DNA from: Labia minor
Lineage: Eukaryota > Arthropoda > Insecta > Dermaptera > Spongiphoridae
Assembly: GCA_963082975.1 (NCBI GenBank)
Contig: OY720344.1
Span: 86,800,107 to 86,864,106, forward strand
DNA: 64,000 bases
Direction: 5' to 3'
Shown here piece after piece: positions 26,399 to 35,631 of this stretch; position 1 is the first letter of the stretch, and each line of letters starts with the position of its first letter. The notes beneath the pieces are model-generated. The model saw only the letters and a list, made by a program, of their open reading frames with translations, ran no database searches and was not told the DNA's origin. The translations under genes and the position numbers were made by a program.

Positions 26399-26403
26399 GG
26401 AAG

Positions 26404-26774
26404 TGTTAAGATGATGTGTGTATGCTTGACGAATTATTTGAAGAAAGCTGTTGTGATCTGTAATAATGTAATCTGGAGAAATAATGTGAAATGAATAAAT
26501 GTTTATAAATCAAATGCTTGCAAATAATATAATATTTATTGATGTGTTTTAATGAAACATAAACATTTAATGTGTTATGATACACGTTCAAAGAAATCCG
26601 ATGATGTGGACTGATGTCCTGCAATGATGTGATTCAGTGTATGTTCAAAACACGAATGAATGAACATGGCGTCTCGCTGAAGTGGCGTACATCTCTCTGG
26701 CGGCGTCGAAGATGGTGCATTTCAGGGCTTGTAGCACCCCCTATACTAATTCTTCGAAGCTTGGTGCTTCTCCA
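26404..26774 (-). repeat. BEL/Pao 3' LTR
   Basis: 371 bp, the downstream LTR of the minus-strand element. It is bounded by TG..CA and is a near-exact copy of 30072-30442. The short purine-rich string next to it (ccggcggga on the minus strand, from 26783 down to 26775) is the likely plus-strand primer. Small open frames inside the LTR are not genes. Confidence 0.92.
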
Positions 26775-26811
26775 TCCCGCCGGCCTTGAAGTATCTTCAA
26801 CGAAACCCCTC

Positions 26812-27914
26812 TTAGTGGACTGTATCTTCTTGGTTGATCGGTAAAGGGCACAGCTTCATCACCGATCGTCTGATGATGTTTCCATTTGGCATGGATACAT
26901 CAACAACTCTGACAATCTTGTCCTTGCCAGGATATAATTTTGAAATTCTTCCAAGTGACCATTTCAGCGGAGGTAAATTGTCTTCTTTCAAAAGAACCAG
27001 AGCTCCAAGTTTGACATTTGCAGATTGATTCGTCCATTTCTGACGAACCTGCAGTTCTGAAATGTACTCAGCAGCCCATCTCCTCCAGAATGACTGAAAC
27101 AGCTTGGTGATATATGCATATCTTTTCAAACGATTGTCTTTGATTTCGACAAAGTTTGATTCTGGAATATTTGTTGCTGGTTTTCCAATTAAAAAATGTG
27201 CAGGGGTTAATGGATTATGATCTGATGGATCTGATGATAAAGGTGTAAGTGGACGAGAATTTAGAATGGATTCTATCATAGTTAGCACAGTGGTATATTC
27301 TTCAAAATTCAATTTGGATTCGCCTAGAATTCTATTTAAATGATGTTTTGTTCTTTTTATCATGCTTTCCCAGCAGCCTCCAAAGTGTGGGCTTTTAGCT
27401 GGAATAAAATGCCATTGTATATTTTCTCTCATTAGAGCTTCATATATTTGGCTGTTATTAAGAATTTTGAAAAGTTCCTTTAATTTATGATGAGCCCCCA
27501 CAAAATTTGTACCATTGTCTGAATATATGGCTAATGGTCTGCCTCTGCGGGCAATAAAGCGCTTCAATGAATTTAAGAACATATCCGCCGATAGATCTGA
27601 TACCAATTCTAAGTGCTCTGCTCGGGTTGATAAACATGTAAAAAGGCAAATGTACGCCTTGACTATTCGAGGCCGTCTACTGTTACCTTCCTTCAAAAGT
27701 ACGGGGCCTGCATAATCAACCCCTACATTGTGAAAGGCATATACTGTTCTACCCGTGCAGTTCGTAAATTCCTCATTTGATAATTAATTGATTTTGGTTT
27801 GGCTCGAAAACATTTAATGCAGTTATGAATTATTTCCCTAGCCAGATTTCTGCCCCCAATAGGCCAATACTTTTGTCTAATGGAATATAATAATTGTTGA
27901 GGTCCGCAATGCAA
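26812..27914 (-). pseudogene. BEL/Pao integrase (frameshifted)
   Basis: Would insert the element's cDNA into host DNA. The N-terminal part (27914-27723) has the zinc-binding region with HCGPQQLL and a CIKC pair. The core (27696-26812) has LFTCLSTRAEHLELV, IYSDNGTNF with a catalytic Asp, and HFGGCWESMIK with the Glu. A run ending SFWRRWAAEYISELQ is typical of the BEL C-terminal part. The two parts lie in different frames. One base appears to be missing in the A-rich codons around 27730, and the old frame then hits TAG. Upstream, it is joined in frame to Gag-protease except for a single TAG at 27930-27932. Present as pieces; function as it stands is doubtful. Confidence 0.9.
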
Positions 27915-27929
27915 TAGTCGTATATGTTC

Positions 27930-29798
27930 CTACACGACCTTTTTTAAATCAAATTCAAGATCGGTTAATCTTAATAAATTCACTTTGGAGCTGTTGTTAA
28001 GTGAATTACAAATATTGCCTGCTACGATCCAACCGAATTTACTTTTTTGTAATATGGGACGGCCCTTTCCTAAGAAAATTTGCCCTGCGCACAACGAATC
28101 ATAAAATATGTCTGCACCTATTAACATATCAATATCCTCGCTTTCATTAAATGTTTCATCTGCAAGTTCAATATCATCTGGAATATTCAAATGATTGATA
28201 TCAAACGAATTAGTTGGTAATTTGTCAGTAATATGGTCCATAACAAGAAACTGTAAATTTCGCTTATACTGTGATTTCAACGAGCATATCTCTAAATTTG
28301 TTTTATGTTTAATTTTATGTTGAATATTACCTATTCCTGTAATTGTATATTCTATTTTGAATTTTTTTGATTTTAATTTATCGCACAATTTTTTTGTAAT
28401 TAAATTGCTTTGCGATCCATTGTCTAAAAGCGCTCTACATATGTGATAATTGCCATGAATGTCCTTTACCTTTACTTTAATTGTGGATAATAATGTTTTA
28501 TTTGACTGTATATCAGAGCATATTCCTACCAACCCGTGGGCCGTGCTATTTGAATCGCTATTGTTATCATTTTCTTTGATTTCTATGTCATCTGTTGGCT
28601 GCATTTTTGATTGTATTTCAACGGGGTCTAAATGAAGTAATGTATTATGGGATTTGTTACACTTAGTGCATTTTGAAGATTTACATGACGAGGCGTAATG
28701 GGAGGGTTTGAGACAATTTAAACATAATTTTAAATTCCGAATGTTGTTAATTCTTTCCCTGGTGTTTAATTTTAAAAATTTTGAACATTTGTATATTGCG
28801 TGTGGCTCTTTACATAAGGCACACGATTTTGCAGTTGATATATGAGTATATCCTTTGTTTAATTTTGGTGATATTGGCCTAGTGGGTTTCGAATCTCCAA
28901 CTCGTATTAAAATAGCAGATTTTTCCCTAATAAATTTTAATAATGTTTCGAAAGAAATATTATCGTCCCTGGTTGTCTGTATTTCCCAATCCCTTCTGGT
29001 TTTACTATCAAATTTTGATGAAATTAAATAAACTAATAATGTATCCCAGGAATCAGTTGGTTCACCTAATGCTTTTAATGCTCTTAAATTTTTGTTTATA
29101 TCATCATGTAACATCTGTAGATGGCTCCCCGATTCTCTTTGTAGTGAGGGCAGTTCAAATATAGACTTTACATGATTGTGAATTAATAATTTTTTATTTT
29201 CGAATCTTTCATTAAGAAGATCCCATGCTATTTGATAATTTTGAGCCGTGACCTTCATTGATTCCAAAATTTCTAAAGCCCGCCCCTTTAGAGTTGATTT
29301 CAAATAATATAATTTTTGAACCTCAGATAATTGATCATTTTGATCAATTAGAGCTGAGAATGCATCTTTGAATTCGAGCCAATTGTTAAAATTCCCATCG
29401 AAATTAGGTAGTTCTATGGTAGGTAATTGTATGAATTGATTTTTAGAGGACGATGATGCTAAGCTAATTACATCAGCGTCTGGCCTAACGACAGACGCTC
29501 TCTCAAATTCATGAACCGCTTTTTTAATTTTGGATTTTAATGCGAAATAACGATTTTCAAAAGTAGATCGTTCCTCAATTTCTATTTCGAAAGATTCCGC
29601 GTTATCAATACATTTCAGTTCAATTTGATCCTGAATTGTATTGAATTTTTCGAATTTTGATTCAAAATTTTCTAAACGATCCTCTGATTGAATAATTGAT
29701 TCTTGGTCGAAAGTTTGTATGGACTCAACATAATTTTTGAATTTAGTCAATTGTGCTTTTATTAATTTTCTTGAATTTTTTAAATGCTGCAATTCCAT
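27930..29798 (-). CDS. BEL/Pao Gag-protease polyprotein
   Basis: A 622-residue open frame starting at ATG 29798, about 270 bp after the 5' LTR. Residues 1-115 are coiled-coil-like and charged. Residues 125-300 are the Gag/capsid-like region (LPNFDGNFNNWLEFKDAF). Two cysteine clusters follow: CALCKEPHAIYKC (about 326-338) and CLNCLKPSHYASSC (about 359-372) plus CTKC, which are zinc knuckles expected to bind the element's RNA. The aspartic protease motif is LLDNGSQSNLI (about 457-467), with Asn where most family members have Ser or Thr. The frame ends at TAG 27930 just where the polymerase would begin, because of the internal deletion. The Gag part looks intact and could still make particles. 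Confidence 0.92.
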   Translation of the reverse strand: MELQHLKNSRKLIKAQLTKFKNYVESIQTFDQESIIQSEDRLENFESKFEKFNTIQDQIELKCIDNAESFEIEIEERSTFENRYFALKSKIKKAVHEFERASVVRPDADVISLASSSSKNQFIQLPTIELPNFDGNFNNWLEFKDAFSALIDQNDQLSEVQKLYYLKSTLKGRALEILESMKVTAQNYQIAWDLLNERFENKKLLIHNHVKSIFELPSLQRESGSHLQMLHDDINKNLRALKALGEPTDSWDTLLVYLISSKFDSKTRRDWEIQTTRDDNISFETLLKFIREKSAILIRVGDSKPTRPISPKLNKGYTHISTAKSCALCKEPHAIYKCSKFLKLNTRERINNIRNLKLCLNCLKPSHYASSCKSSKCTKCNKSHNTLLHLDPVEIQSKMQPTDDIEIKENDNNSDSNSTAHGLVGICSDIQSNKTLLSTIKVKVKDIHGNYHICRALLDNGSQSNLITKKLCDKLKSKKFKIEYTITGIGNIQHKIKHKTNLEICSLKSQYKRNLQFLVMDHITDKLPTNSFDINHLNIPDDIELADETFNESEDIDMLIGADIFYDSLCAGQIFLGKGRPILQKSKFGWIVAGNICNSLNNSSKVNLLRLTDLEFDLKKVV

Positions 29799-30052
29799 AT
29801 TGAATAAAGGCTACACCAATTATGCAACTATAATGAATTATATGAATTAATGAAAGGAATGAAAAGGACTTACCGCACAAATTAATTCCAGCAACAAATA
29901 TTAATTGTTTGTTAAATCAAGTTGCTCAATTTCTCCAGATACAAATACTGTTTTCGGATTTCTTGGCTTCTCAAATATGATTCGTCTCAATATGTTGAAT
30001 TACTTGCTGTATCTAGCTCGATTGAACTAAATGTTGAATATACTGGATGAAT

Positions 30053-30069
30053 CCGGCTCAATTGGACCA
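30053..30069 (-). other. BEL/Pao primer binding site
   Basis: On the minus strand, TGGTCCAATTGAGCCGG begins two bases inside the 5' LTR. It starts with TGG, as a site pairing with the 3' CCA of a tRNA should. Which tRNA cannot be decided here. Confidence 0.75.
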
Positions 30070-30071
30070 AA

Positions 30072-30442
30072 TGTTAAGATGTTGTGTGTATGCTTGACGA
30101 ATTATTTGAAGAAAGCTGTTGTGATCTGTAATAATGTAATCTGGAGAAATAATGTGAAATGAATAAATGTTTATAAATCAAATGCTTGCAAATAATATAA
30201 TATTTATTGATGTGTTTTAATGAAACATAAACATTTAATGTGTTATGATACACGTTCAAAGAAATCCGATGATGTGGACTGATGTCCTGCAAAGATGTGA
30301 TTCAGTGTATGTTCAAAACACGAATGAATGAACATGGCGTCTCGCTGAAGTGGCGTACATCTCTCTGGCGGCGTCGAAGATGGTGCATTTCAGGGCTTGT
30401 AGCACCCCCTATACTAATTCTTCGAAGCTTGGTGCTTCTCCA
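30072..30442 (-). repeat. BEL/Pao 5' LTR
   Basis: 371 bp, the upstream LTR on the minus strand and source of the promoter. It matches the other LTR except for two substitutions that I can find (near 30082 and 30293). Confidence 0.92.
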
Positions 30443-30500
30443 GGAAGTAATATTGTTGAGACAAGGAAGCAAGAGGTAAAGTTCTATATACCTATATATA

Positions 30501-30734
30501 CACAGAGGTGCAAAAAAAGTGAAACGCTTAGAAAAATTTGATTTTTTCAAATAATTTTCAGGAAAAACATATATGTATAGTGTTTTATTTAAACTTTTAA
30601 TTAATTGTTACAAATATTTTAAAACATTTTTAGAGTGAAACAATTTTCAAAATTCTGATAGTCCAAACACTTACCAAAAATTATTTGAAAAAATCAAATT
30701 TTTCTAAGCGTTCCACTTTTTTTGCACCTCAGTG
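30501..30734. mobile_element. Tc1/mariner-type MITE
   Basis: 234 bp with inverted repeats of about 58 bp: CACAGAGGTGCAAAAAAAG at the left and the complement of CACTGAGGTGCAAAAAAAG at the right. It is flanked by TA on both sides. No transposase is encoded. The TIR start CACTGAGG and TA target fit the IS630-Tc1-mariner superfamily. It lies between the two LTR elements. Confidence 0.85.
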
Positions 30735-30842
30735 TATATATAAAATATAATATAATATATATATATATATATAAATATAAGTATAAATATGTATAAAAAA
30801 GTATATAAAAAAGTATGAAAAAGTACAAATACACAATACAAA

Positions 30843-31003: not shown

Positions 31004-31240
31004 TGTAAAATAATAACAACAGAATTTATTATATCCAAAAAGGAATAATTAATTTTCAAGTTTATTTCTTTTAAATTATTTTACAAGTTATAAATAAATA
31101 AAATACATATAAATGGATAAATAATAAAATGAGTAAATTAGATGTCGATAACACATATAAATAGATAAATAATAAATGAGTAATTAGATGTCCGCTAGAG
31201 GGTGATATAAGTAGGTGGAGGTAAATATAAATATTTTACA
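31004..31240 (-). repeat. Gypsy 3' LTR
   Basis: 237 bp, begins TGTAAAATA and ends TTTTACA. Identical by eye to 35395-35631. Confidence 0.93.
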
Positions 31241-31252
31241 TCTTACCCCCTT
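31241..31252 (-). other. Polypurine tract
   Basis: AAGGGGGTAAGA on the minus strand, directly next to the 3' LTR and partly overlapping the end of pol. This is the expected plus-strand primer of reverse transcription. Confidence 0.75.
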
Positions 31253-34200
31253 AGGCTTTTTCTTCAGAAGAAAAAGGTGTCAATTTACTGCAGTGGAAAC
31301 AGTTTGATAATTTTTTTCTTTTTTTTCCACAGTCAACCTCGTATATGGATGTGGAAATTCTTTTTGTTATTCTGAATGGGCCCATCCTTACTTTATCCGT
31401 TTTCCTACGGTTTATTTTATTCCCATTCTCGATGTATACCATCTCGCCTATTTTAAATTCTTTTTCTTTTCTAGTTTTGTCTATCCTTTCTTTATTAGTG
31501 TAAAAACTTTTTAAGGAATTTTTAAAAGCTTCTTTCCTGGCCTGTTCCAGATTATCTTCCCCAAAAGTTATAGGAGAAATTGTTGATTTTATACCCAAAA
31601 GTAAATATTCAGGTTCAAATTTTGTTGAACTATGAATTGTCTTGTTGTATTCCTTTGTACAATCTTCTGCGATTTTAGACCATGCTCTATTATCACCACT
31701 ATTTATTTTGCATCTTATTCTATTAACAAGAGTTTGGTTTAGTCTCTCATTTAGGCCATTAGATTGGGGACAATCTATTGATGTAAATACAAGTTGTATA
31801 TTTTTTTTATTTAAATAGTTTTTAAATTCTTCAGAATTAAATCCAGAGTATTGGTCTGTCAAAATCATTTTAATTTCATTTTCTTTTGTAACTGGATCTA
31901 TTAATTTGATAAATTCTTTAGCGTCTTGACCTGTCGAAGTGGAGATCCAAGCGTATCTGCTAAAGTGATCCACTAAAATGTGCATAAATCTTTTCGGTGA
32001 TCTGTTCCCGGCGAATCCTCCTACCGTATCAATGGACATAATTTCATAGGGTTTACTTGGAGGCCCTAATTTCGACATTAATCCAATTGTTCTTCCTTTA
32101 CGAGTTTTGTTTTCTTTACAAATCTTGCAATTTTCACAAAATGAATTAATTAATCGATCCATATTTTTAAAATAATAGTAGGGTCTTATTTTCCTTTTTA
32201 ATTGAGCATTTCCTATATGACCATAATATTCATGAACGAGCTTTATTAATTTTATACCAAAGTCAATTGAAATATATATCCTTGCTCTGTTATTTAGATT
32301 TTTAAAAAAAATATTATTTCGTTTTTCTGTTTTTTTATCATTTTCTATTTCTTTAAAATTTTCTTTTTGATCTTCAATTATTTTTTTTATTTCTATTAAA
32401 TTTACTACTTTAATTTCGTCTTCGTTTTCAAAATATTCTAATATTGGCTGTCTTGATAAAAGGTCTGCCAAAATATTGTCTTTCCCTTTTTTATAAATGA
32501 TTTTAAAATTAAATTGAGATAGATAATTGACTAAATCTCCCAATATTTCATCTGTTCTGCTCTTTGTTCTTAAATTTTCTAAGGGTTTATGGTCCGTACA
32601 AACTCTAAATTCTCGGCCCATGACATAAAATTGCCAATATTTTATTGCTTCTTTAATTGCTTTACACTCCAGGTGAATAATATCCATTTTCTTTTCTTTT
32701 TCTGATAGTTTCCTAGAAAAATAAGCAACTGGATGCAACATACCATTAATTTGTGGTTGTTTCAATACTGCACCAATTCCTTTTAAACTAGCATCTGTTT
32801 CAATTATTATTTCTTTGTCTGTATCATATATTGCTAAAATGGGTGAGGAACATAAATATTCTTTAATTAAATTAAAACTTTCATCACATTCTTTTGTCCA
32901 TTCAAATTTTACATTTTTTTTTAATAATCGATGAAGTGGTTCAAATTTTTCTGTACTGTTTTCAATATATTTTAAAAAAAAATTTATTGATCCTAAAATA
33001 CTCCTTACACCAGATTTATCTGTTGGTTTGTTTAGTTTTCTAATAGCAGCCAAATTTTCAATTGCTGGTGATATTTTATTTTCTTGTATGAAATGTCCAA
33101 GATATTTCACTGAATTAGAAGCAAATTTACATTTTTCATATTTTAGTTTGAAACCCACTTCGTCTAGTATTTCAAAAGTTTTTTTTATATGTTTCATATG
33201 TTCCTCCCATGTTTTAGAAAATATTAAGATATCATCGATATAATTTATAGAGAATTCGTCTAAACCATTCCTTCTTAAAATATTAGATAATGTCCTTTGA
33301 AAAATCGCTGGAGCATTTTTAAGACCATATGGTAATACTTTAAACCTAAATTTCCCAAATTTTGTAATAAATGCGGTTTTCTCTCGATCATTTTCACTTA
33401 AAGGAATGTTCCAAAAAGCCGAATTTATATCAATTATCGAAAAATATTTACAATTAGGTATCTTTTCAATAACATCATTTATAGTTGGAAATGGAAAACA
33501 TTCTGGTATTATCAATTTATTTAATCTTCGGTAATCAATACAAAGTCTTGTCCTCCGACCATCCTCTTTTTTGAATGCAAGTGTAACTGGTGATGAAAAA
33601 CCGCCATCTGATTCCTCAATTAACTTTGCCTCTAATAATTTTTTTATCTGATTTTGTATTTCTCTCTCGTCTATTATATTGCATTTATAAGGTCGTGAAT
33701 TAATATATTCCTCTTTAATTAATTTAATCTCACCTTCTTTACATTTTACTTTTCCAACATCAAATTTATTTTTAGCAAATATATTTTTGAAATTTTCTAT
33801 TATCGTTTTTAATTCTATAATTCTATTTTTATCTTCTATATAATCCAATTCATTCATATTTATTTGAAAATCGTTAACATTATTTTTTATATTTGTTGGT
33901 TTTATTTTTATAATATTCTCATCATCTATTTTCTGAAAAATTTTTAAATTTTCATTTTGTATGAGTCTGAATTTCTTTATTGCGTCGAGTCCCAACAGTA
34001 AATCATAAGAAAATTTGTTATTTTTAATTACATAAGTATTTAGATTCTCCGTAATCTCTCCGATTTTCAAACTAATATTTGCCCGGCCTTGACAGAAATT
34101 TTTACCACTAAGTGTTCTAAATATAGATTTGTTTTTTTCTAATTTTAACTTTAAAATATTTAAAAGTTTTTTATTTAGTAAGCTTACATTCGACCCACTA

Positions 34201-34292
34201 TCATAAATAGCTTTTATATTATACTTATTGTCTATTAATACATTTATTTTTATAAGTGGATTAAATTCTTCCGGGCTTTTTAGTTTAAAGAA
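31251..34292 (-). CDS. Gypsy Pol (protease-RT-RNase H-integrase)
   Basis: About 1000 residues, expressed by -1 frameshifting from gag; the frame is open from 34292 with no useful ATG at its head. The protease motif is AIYDSGSNVSLL, about 50 residues in. Numbering from codon 34068-34070, the reverse transcriptase has SIIDINSAFW (211-220) and NYIDDILIF with YIDD at 277-280. RNase H has ETDAS (425-429), LEC (467-469) and CTDHKPL (491-497). The integrase zinc-binding part has HEYYGHIG and CENCKIC (613-651). The integrase core has Asp681, Asp739 and Glu775, with exactly 35 residues between the last two (DD35E). It ends at 31251 beside the 3' LTR. All catalytic residues are present, with no stops. 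Composition is very Lys/Asn/Ile-rich, matching the A+T-rich host and suggesting long residence in such genomes. Confidence 0.95.
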   Translation of the reverse strand, partial: FFKLKSPEEFNPLIKINVLIDNKYNIKAIYDSGSNVSLLNKKLLNILKLKLEKNKSIFRTLSGKNFCQGRANISLKIGEITENLNTYVIKNNKFSYDLLLGLDAIKKFRLIQNENLKIFQKIDDENIIKIKPTNIKNNVNDFQINMNELDYIEDKNRIIELKTIIENFKNIFAKNKFDVGKVKCKEGEIKLIKEEYINSRPYKCNIIDEREIQNQIKKLLEAKLIEESDGGFSSPVTLAFKKEDGRRTRLCIDYRRLNKLIIPECFPFPTINDVIEKIPNCKYFSIIDINSAFWNIPLSENDREKTAFITKFGKFRFKVLPYGLKNAPAIFQRTLSNILRRNGLDEFSINYIDDILIFSKTWEEHMKHIKKTFEILDEVGFKLKYEKCKFASNSVKYLGHFIQENKISPAIENLAAIRKLNKPTDKSGVRSILGSINFFLKYIENSTEKFEPLHRLLKKNVKFEWTKECDESFNLIKEYLCSSPILAIYDTDKEIIIETDASLKGIGAVLKQPQINGMLHPVAYFSRKLSEKEKKMDIIHLECKAIKEAIKYWQFYVMGREFRVCTDHKPLENLRTKSRTDEILGDLVNYLSQFNFKIIYKKGKDNILADLLSRQPILEYFENEDEIKVVNLIEIKKIIEDQKENFKEIENDKKTEKRNNIFFKNLNNRARIYISIDFGIKLIKLVHEYYGHIGNAQLKRKIRPYYYFKNMDRLINSFCENCKICKENKTRKGRTIGLMSKLGPPSKPYEIMSIDTVGGFAGNRSPKRFMHILVDHFSRYAWISTSTGQDAKEFIKLIDPVTKENEIKMILTDQYSGFNSEEFKNYLNKKNIQLVFTSIDCPQSNGLNERLNQTLVNRIRCKINSGDNRAWSKIAEDCTKEYNKTIHSSTKFEPEYLLLGIKSTISPITFGEDNLEQARKEAFKNSLKSFYTNKERIDKTRKEKEFKIGEMVYIENGNKINRRKTDKVRMGPFRITKRISTSIYEVDCGKKRKKLSNCFHCSKLTPFSSEEKA

Positions 34293-35374
34293 TCATAGTT
34301 TTCATTTAAATTACTTTCTTGTTTTATCTTTAAATTTTTATTTCTACATATATTTTCAGAGTGATAACGGTTTGGCCAACCAAAAGATTCGCAAATTGAG
34401 CACGAAAATTTTTTTTTTTTTGTATCACTTGTATTATTTTTATCTATATTTTCGTTTTTATTAAAATTTTTATTATAATTCGTTTTAATTTTATTAAATT
34501 CATTTGATAAATATTCAATTTTCTTTAATTCGGAAAACAATGTTTCAATTGATTTTATTTTTTCATAATCTAGTCTATTTTGAAATTTTTCAGGGAGTCC
34601 CATCACTATCATATGAATCCTAGACTGTATTGTTCCACCGTTCTCTATTTCAATACATAGTTTTTCTTTTGTAATTGCATATTCGATGATGGACCCTCCT
34701 AAATATTTAAAATCAAAAGCTTTTTTTATTTTAATCCAACTTATATCTCTAAATGTATTTTGAAAAGATTCTTTCCAAAGATTCCATTTATTTAATCCAA
34801 ATTTTGTTAAATTTGTATCATACCAGTCTTTTGATATGCCTAGTATATAAAATCGAAGTGTTTCAATAATATTAGTCTCATTCACTATATTATTTCTAAA
34901 ACATTCATTTTCAAATTTTTGAATCCAAATTATTGGATCTTGATTTTTATTAAATTTTTCTAAATTTAATTTTTTTTCAATATCATAAAAATTAAAATGA
35001 GTTGCACTTAGCTGTAGTTGTAATTTTTCAATTTCCATTTGCAAATTTTTCTTTTCTTCTTGATCGAAGTTGATTTCATTAGAAATTTCTTCTAACGGAA
35101 TTTTATTAAAAGAAATATTTTCACCTTCATCAAAATAAATTTTTTTAAGTTCTTCATTTAATTTTATACCAATTTTACGATATCCTTGAATGGGTTTTAT
35201 AGCCAGCATTGAACTCTTAATTATAGAATTTGAAAGTAATATGGGATGATTTTGAACTTTCCTTGATTCTTCTGGTAACCTATACCATAGTTCTTTGTCT
35301 TCGGACAACCCAGAAATATCATATTCATTTTCTTCCTTTTTTACAATATGTACATAAAAAAATTTTTTTTCCAT
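34280..35374 (-). CDS. Gypsy Gag
   Basis: About 364 residues from the ATG at 35374, the first start outside the LTR; an upstream in-frame ATG at 35410 lies within the LTR. It forms the element's particle. Residues up to about 110 hold a coiled-coil-like Lys/Glu/Leu region. The centre has IIWIQKFENECF and LRFYILGISKDWYD, typical of retrotransposon Gag, followed by WNLWKESFQNTF. Near the C-terminus CSICESFGWPNRYHSENIC forms one atypical zinc-knuckle-like cluster (C-x2-C-x9-H-x4-C). It ends TTA AAC TAA, where ribosomes can slip into pol. Confidence 0.88.
   Translation of the reverse strand: MEKKFFYVHIVKKEENEYDISGLSEDKELWYRLPEESRKVQNHPILLSNSIIKSSMLAIKPIQGYRKIGIKLNEELKKIYFDEGENISFNKIPLEEISNEINFDQEEKKNLQMEIEKLQLQLSATHFNFYDIEKKLNLEKFNKNQDPIIWIQKFENECFRNNIVNETNIIETLRFYILGISKDWYDTNLTKFGLNKWNLWKESFQNTFRDISWIKIKKAFDFKYLGGSIIEYAITKEKLCIEIENGGTIQSRIHMIVMGLPEKFQNRLDYEKIKSIETLFSELKKIEYLSNEFNKIKTNYNKNFNKNENIDKNNTSDTKKKKFSCSICESFGWPNRYHSENICRNKNLKIKQESNLNENYDSLN
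34283..34289 (-). promoter_or_regulatory. -1 ribosomal frameshift site T_TTA_AAC
   Basis: In the gag frame the codons read TCT TTA AAC TAA, giving the heptamer T TTA AAC immediately before the gag stop. Slipping back one base continues in the pol frame as F-K-L-K-S-P-E-E. The pol frame is closed just upstream (TGA at 34293-34295), so entry must happen within this 12-base overlap. The heptamer is the canonical X_XXY_YYZ type used in many retroelements and RNA viruses. A downstream structure was not verified. Confidence 0.85.
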
Positions 35375-35383
35375 TTTAAAATT

Positions 35384-35394
35384 GAAAATTAATT
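35384..35394 (-). other. Candidate self-priming primer binding site
   Basis: The minus-strand sequence abutting the 5' LTR is AATTAATTTTC. It has no TGG and no evident tRNA match. It is exactly complementary to GAAAATTAATT inside the same LTR (35438-35448, minus strand), which would be the start of the transcript if transcription begins at 35448. Tf1/sushi-type elements prime cDNA this way, with 11 bases of their own RNA. Confidence 0.6.
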
Positions 35395-35631
35395 TGTAAA
35401 ATAATAACAACAGAATTTATTATATCCAAAAAGGAATAATTAATTTTCAAGTTTATTTCTTTTAAATTATTTTACAAGTTATAAATAAATAAAATACATA
35501 TAAATGGATAAATAATAAAATGAGTAAATTAGATGTCGATAACACATATAAATAGATAAATAATAAATGAGTAATTAGATGTCCGCTAGAGGGTGATATA
35601 AGTAGGTGGAGGTAAATATAAATATTTTACA
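35395..35631 (-). repeat. Gypsy 5' LTR
   Basis: 237-bp upstream LTR that supplies the promoter for the minus-strand transcript. Identical to the 3' LTR by eye. Only 20 bases separate it from the gag ATG at 35374, an unusually short leader that leaves little room for a conventional tRNA site. Confidence 0.93.
35479..35483 (-). promoter_or_regulatory. TATA box of the Gypsy LTR
   Basis: TATAA on the minus strand, 31-35 bases upstream of the G at 35448 proposed as transcript start. The spacing is canonical, but A/T richness makes chance occurrence easy. Confidence 0.45.

Follow-up and report, generated by a model that had tools for sequence, protein, structure and literature searches.

In the fission yeast retrotransposon Tf1 the first 11 bases of the RNA pair with the primer-binding site, and cleavage by RNase H falls between bases 11 and 12 (PMC7175516), and in Tj1 the site is complementary to the 5' end of the mRNA (PMC4600332). 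Self-priming has also been predicted for vertebrate chromoviruses of the Tf1/sushi group and for the Tcn1 elements of fungi and plants (PMC6317226). Among insect Ty3/gypsy elements, Mag members of Culex carry sites complementary to tRNA Leu, tRNA Ser and once tRNA Arg, and Osvaldo carries one for tRNA Lys (PMC3286476). All of these sources are cited here from excerpts. The excerpted open-licence literature, among the matches listed, contained no report of self-priming in an insect Ty3/gypsy element or of an intron inside an LTR.

Here we describe a Ty3/gypsy element in a 64 kb stretch of DNA (the window) together with its relatives. It is highly likely that minus-strand synthesis in the family of this element is primed by the element's own RNA and that primer and site change together throughout its clade.

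Structure of the element

The element in the window is a young copy of its Ty3/gypsy family. Its parts, and those of a second element considered below, are as follows:

35395..35631, minus strand: 5' LTR, 237 bp, TGTAAAAT...ATTTTACA; identical to 31004-31240
31004..31240, minus strand: 3' LTR, 237 bp; identical to the 5' LTR
35382..35394, minus strand: primer-binding site, the first 13 bases inside the 5' LTR; exact complement of 35438-35450
35438..35450, minus strand: putative self-primer within the LTR; presumed first 11 transcript bases 35448-35438
35395..35448, minus strand: presumed R-U5, 54 bases, without intron; predicted fold with the primer paired to the primer-binding site and two small hairpins between
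35479..35483, minus strand: TATA-like motif (sequence), 31-35 bases upstream of the primer
35416..35421, minus strand: AATAAA in the presumed R-U5 (sequence)
35375..35394, minus strand: leader from LTR to gag, 20 bases (sequence)
34280..35374, minus strand: gag, 364 aa, ATG at 35374 (open reading frame; gag relatives found)
31251..34070, minus strand: pol, 939 aa from the first start codon (Pfam RVT_1, RT_RNaseH, Integrase_H2C2, rve)
31241..31252, minus strand: polypurine tract adjoining the 3' LTR (sequence, by eye)
26401-30368, minus strand: BEL/Pao-like element; 300-bp LTRs 99% alike, open reading frame with DUF1759, integrase-like open reading frame by eye

With LTRs, gag, a pol in the order reverse transcriptase, RNase H and integrase, and a polypurine tract, the element has the features of Ty3/gypsy (Metaviridae), and its best match of solved structure is the Ty3 polyprotein. 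Gag and pol lie in separate frames. Close to its C-terminal end gag carries a knuckle C-X2-C-X9-H-X4-C (read by eye); it matched no Pfam family at E up to 1e-3 and just weak sub-threshold ones at E up to 1. Among the matches listed, the best named gag and pol relatives belong to Rhynocoris and Clastoptera, both Hemiptera, while those of a wasp and a butterfly (listed for one search) rank lower. The gag frame stays open upstream over 35375-35410, crossing the primer-binding site and reaching into the LTR (TTG at 35410), and translation reading through from the LTR would meet no stop over this interval.

Complementarity at the LTR edge

The original prediction held that the 11 bases that follow the 5' LTR have an exact complement of 11 bases within it. 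We found 35394-35384 to pair exactly with 35448-35438, and the match really covers 13 bases (35394-35382 with 35450-35438). The other parts of the arrangement described there were recovered as well: a TATAA at 35479-35483, 31-35 bases upstream of the LTR copy, where 25 of 30 family copies are shorter by 3 bases; a leader of just 20 bases before the gag ATG at 35374; and a primer-binding site whose first 18 bases contain no TGG. In the BEL/Pao-like element, in contrast, a TGG site reading TGGTCCAATTGAGCCGG is located two bases inside the LTR (border by eye); part of its pol is probably missing, as its LTR starts are just 3.7 kb apart. An inverted repeat at 30493-30742, with two 66-base arms that are 97% complementary and 118 bases between them, looks like a small foldback or MITE-like element. 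Since the primer-binding site of the Ty3/gypsy element begins at the base adjoining the LTR, where minus-strand synthesis must start, the geometry is right for priming.

The site-side 11-mer occurs once in the 64 kb, and its complement in the two LTRs only. Dinucleotide shuffles of the LTR retained this complement in 22 of 20,000 cases; shuffled leaders reached at least 11 bases in 36 and 13 bases in 3 of 20,000 cases, and 233 of 118,600 11-mers elsewhere in the window (about 0.2%) matched the LTR. For the window match alone the chance is thereby 0.015-0.2%. None of 1500 shuffles gave an RNA duplex of primer and site as good in energy, and fold prediction assigned the helix a mean pair probability of 0.92. 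The minimum-energy fold of the leader was not significant (z-score -1.15; 22 of 200 shuffles as good). The original prediction had regarded chance matching as eased by A/T richness but the exact adjacency to the LTR as hard to dismiss. The match in the window is indeed improbable by chance, but it is suggestive and not conclusive when taken alone, and it is the relatives that decide.

Copies and related families

A query of LTR, leader and gag start was compared with the 604-Mb assembly to which the window belongs. All 40 of the candidates that were scored (out of 154) matched, 39 of them along the whole query. Thirty loci of the window family, the window copy included, were taken and comprise 16 haplotypes. 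Both 11-mers are invariant in all 30, so the window family alone was rejected as a test of covariation.

More distant relatives were collected with the gag of L001, which gave at least 139 matches in the host genome (105 of 961 candidates scored). Among 20 upstream pieces the LTR-gag junction was present in 16 and absent in L072, L073, L074 and L077. L072 and L073 (G000:C10:24989544-24990844 and 24992289-24993589) are two F6-like gag copies in divergent orientation and without LTR; the DNA upstream of them differs from that of F6 and is alike in both by eye. The comparison set comprises eleven families, namely the window's, nine of the same genome (F1, F2, F5, F6, F7, F8, F12, F14, F15) and L001. 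Gag identity over the first 60 residues is 22-51% between families, with 97% for F2/F15. The F1 alignment has the full region in 28 of 30 loci; L039 is apparently intron-less (see below) and L043 belongs to F2. L098 and L100, found with the F14 LTR, were left out of the family count because they have no gag junction. Viral contigs scanned for relatives of the element yielded none.

L001 lies on contig JAEMQG010000021.1 of a Nitrosopumilus MAG and is a circularly permuted Ty3/gypsy element of animal type; the contig is almost certainly foreign DNA in an archaeal genome record. The clade is present in about ten families here and in another organism. By eye, several of its members lie in TA runs (flanks of 31004 and 35631; L034, L071, L075, L100). 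Insertion into (TA)n seems to be preferred, and a target duplication is unreadable in such runs.

3' LTRs were taken for six families. The identity of 5' and 3' LTR sets the border in five families, the window's, F1, F7, F8 and F12, and in the latter four it stops exactly at the TTACA adjoining the site. In F14 the match continues into the A/T-rich flank, and the 3' piece of F5 is incomplete. The borders of F2, F5, F6, F15 and L001 are based on one LTR or an incomplete second one; the LTR ends of F6 and L001 would read TTATA and TTAGA, not TTACA. For L001, LTR ends at 719 or 806 were considered and rejected, as the other families place the site further in, with an exact 11-mer; the end at 806 gave an imperfect duplex that 20 of 1500 shuffles equalled.

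Primer and site change together between families

In each of the eleven families the stretch of 11-13 bases that begins at the inner LTR edge is exactly complementary to part of the family's own LTR. As a control the site of one family was set against the LTR of another with the same search freedom. Only 4 of 110 such pairings reached 11 bases, all between families with the same 11-mer (F1/F5 and F2/F15). Where the letters of the site differ, none of 106 pairings did so (mean 6.1, maximum 10). Shuffled LTRs held the own match in 2 to 18 of 5000 cases per family, except for F14 with 124 of 5000; the 11-mer of F7 alone was held in 83 of 5000 shuffles and its 13-mer in 5 of 5000. Co-varying 11-mers in relatives had been named beforehand as the test of the original prediction, and they were found: the pairs change between families and do not change within the window's. 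Both 11-mers are also intact in 29 of 29 F1 loci.

Nine distinct pairs of 11-mers show two-sided changes at 7 of 11 positions, and four positions never vary. The covariation score is 0.641 versus 0.172 when shuffled (0 of 500 as high) and at most 0.186 in slid versions; weaker measures were equalled in 6 of 500 (positions with two-sided changes) and 57 of 500 shuffles (pair types). We rejected this score as an unbiased test because the primers were picked as exact complements, from which 99 of 99 paired cells follow, and used the cross-family control instead. Because matches are found in 11 of 11 families to their own LTR versus 0 of 106 to LTRs of families with other site letters, the comparison of sequences provides strong evidence that selection maintains the pairing, and hence for self-priming.

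A rival reading is a chance match, on the argument that in A/T-rich DNA an 11-base complement in a 237-bp LTR is too common to carry weight. The 73% A+T of the window, the background rate of matching 11-mers outside the element, the 2.5% reached by F14 in shuffles and cross-family matches of up to 10 bases lend it some room. It is refuted by this family comparison and is extremely improbable.

Priming by a tRNA, or by an internal tRNA fragment as in copia, would leave the self-complement to serve packaging or a translation-blocking hairpin. A TGG is indeed present in the sites of F6 (bases 4-6) and F1 (bases 13-15), but it is absent from the first 18 bases in 9 of 11 families. Moreover, the sites vary by family, each matching its own LTR, and the match begins exactly at the base from which minus-strand synthesis has to proceed if it is to produce the LTR end. 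We therefore consider a tRNA primer quite unlikely and return to self-priming.

The distance of TATA-like motifs is not constant in the other families (by eye). Fold predictions for the mechanism are mixed across families: the primer-site helix is not predicted in F14 (P 0.00-0.01) and is poorly predicted in unspliced F1, F6 and F7 (P 0.00, 0.08 and 0.04).

A repeated block after the primer

In ten families, all except the window's, the primer is followed by a block of 6-12 bases ending in AG and then by GTA; the block recurs 56-89 bases further on, again ending in AG. Although the block was delimited by the repeat alone, all ten families that carry it have GTA immediately behind copy 1 and AG closing both copies. 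On its left side the block starts precisely at base 12 in five of the ten families, with 1 extra base in three and 3 extra bases in two. Base 12 is where a cut as in Tf1 leaves the template, according to the excerpted description (PMC7175516).

Within a family the copies are identical at 98 of 98 positions, which follows from how the block was delimited. Between families the blocks differ (mean identity 0.61; 0 of 90 full cross-family matches), and the one base that distinguishes the blocks of F2 and F15 is changed alike in both copies. Shuffled LTRs held the block in 0 to 72 of 5000 cases. Equally long repeats occur elsewhere in the LTRs of F1, F2, F6, F12 and F15, which leaves five families where the block is the longest repeat. 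All ten families have one or more AATAAA within -23 to +4 relative to the acceptor, which places the RNA 3' end probably just after copy 2.

Judged from these sequence patterns, the repeated block marks an apparent intron wholly inside the LTR in ten of eleven families. Once the segment is removed, the distance from primer start to LTR end is 49-81 bases (8 of 10 at 49-64) versus 54 in the window family, which is the intron-less form with about the length of most others after splicing. A clear aid of splicing to the primer-site fold was considered and rejected: pairing probability rises in F1, F6 and F7, falls in F5 and F8 and stays about the same in the remaining five.

L100 (G000:C9:48943089-48943276) appears by eye to be a solo LTR from another family; it contains a 15-base repeat in which copy 1 is followed by GTAAG and copy 2 ends in AG. 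If the model given below is true, its primer-binding site should read AATAGAATAAT.

Proposed mechanism

We infer the transcript start, the fold in vivo, splicing, the cut site and priming in the following way. The RNA of the window element would start at 35448, and its first 11 (up to 13) bases would fold back onto the primer-binding site. The element's RNase H would cut after base 11, as in Tf1, and free the primer. In the families with the block, splicing would remove the LTR intron at the 5' end of the genomic RNA, and the spliced RNA would prime itself. As the self-primer consumes bases 1-11, the minus strand would reach only to base 12 and carry a copy of the block at its end; this could then anneal to copy 2, which closes the intron in the unspliced 3' R. 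Extension from there would write the intron back into the new LTR in each cycle, copy 2 being rewritten from copy 1 in every round, a form of concerted evolution. The repeat of 6-12 bases would thus act as the R region for strand transfer. Annealing to copy 1 instead would lead to loss of the intron, as in the window family and in single F1 and F14 elements. This model would explain the pyrimidine-rich, acceptor-like sequence upstream of the donor, the identity of the copies and the border at base 12. We judge it moderately likely that the LTR intron is spliced and then restored in each cycle by strand transfer from the spliced RNA.

Loss and decay of the block bear on this model. A precise loss of the segment that runs from one copy to the other is seen in 1 of 29 F1 loci (L039) and in both LTRs of one F14 element; three F14 loci keep the segment. 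Its absence from both LTRs of one element points to a step of reverse transcription. Of 29 F1 loci, four have lost the acceptor AG (L042 and three that share a contig at spacings of about 17.5 kb) and one has lost the donor GT. The acceptor is also mutated in L092, an F14 copy, and in L098, an older diverged relative, the two blocks differ. It can be argued that copies that do not splice would not be refreshed under the model.

Self-priming could also be right while the block is a direct repeat kept in another way, for example by template slippage, and the missing segment a deletion between repeats. Deletion and splicing would give the same product, the LTRs of five families hold other repeats of equal length, and the decayed splice sites in F1 and the differing blocks of L098 would fit. 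However, with the border set by the repeat alone, GTA and AG stand in place in all ten families, the lengths after removal resemble that of the window family, and the loss from both LTRs of the F14 element is expected if it occurred during reverse transcription. A direct repeat kept by other means is thus the less probable reading, though one with some weight, and we prefer the spliced and restored intron.

If this intron is real, it persists although its own spliced RNA is reverse transcribed, which would normally be expected to remove introns, and it could be used to test how strand transfer picks its acceptor. The families with matched primer, site and repeat further constitute a comparative data set for cut position and fold.

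Comparison with known systems

Donor and acceptor both apparently lie inside the LTR in the ten block-bearing families of the present clade. Foamy viruses are an example of retroviruses with a splice donor in R, but their acceptor lies outside the LTR; the donor in R is common to both.

The eleven families very probably form a Ty3/gypsy clade without detectable chromodomain that self-primes as Tf1 does. A search of the pols of five members, the window's included, detected no chromodomain at an E-value limit of 1, although most hits above about 0.1 are removed by the HMMER filters; SH3_Tf2-1 was detected below its cut-off in all five. The original prediction had likened the arrangement to that of Tf1/sushi elements. 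The likeness holds for the way it works, with family-specific matches at the LTR edge in 11 of 11 families, whereas membership in that group is unsupported, no chromodomain having been found. Predicted self-priming is shared with the Tf1/sushi chromoviruses and Tcn1, and the lack of a detectable chromodomain in five pols sets the clade apart from them.

The fission yeast elements Tf1, Tf2 and Tj1 are alike in that 11 bases at the presumed RNA 5' end match the site directly inside the LTR. The present clade differs from them in its probable insect genome and, as seen in the window element, in having gag and pol in separate frames; Tf1 has a single frame. An apparent LTR intron, found in ten of our eleven families, is not mentioned for Tf1 in the excerpted sources (PMC7175516, PMC4600332). 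Mag and Osvaldo, also insect Ty3/gypsy elements, differ in that, according to the excerpt cited above, the Culex members have sites complementary to tRNAs. Self-priming, reported in the excerpted literature for fungi, vertebrates and plants, is now apparent in a probable insect clade without detectable chromodomain, which suggests either repeated origins of the mechanism or a greater age than has been assumed.
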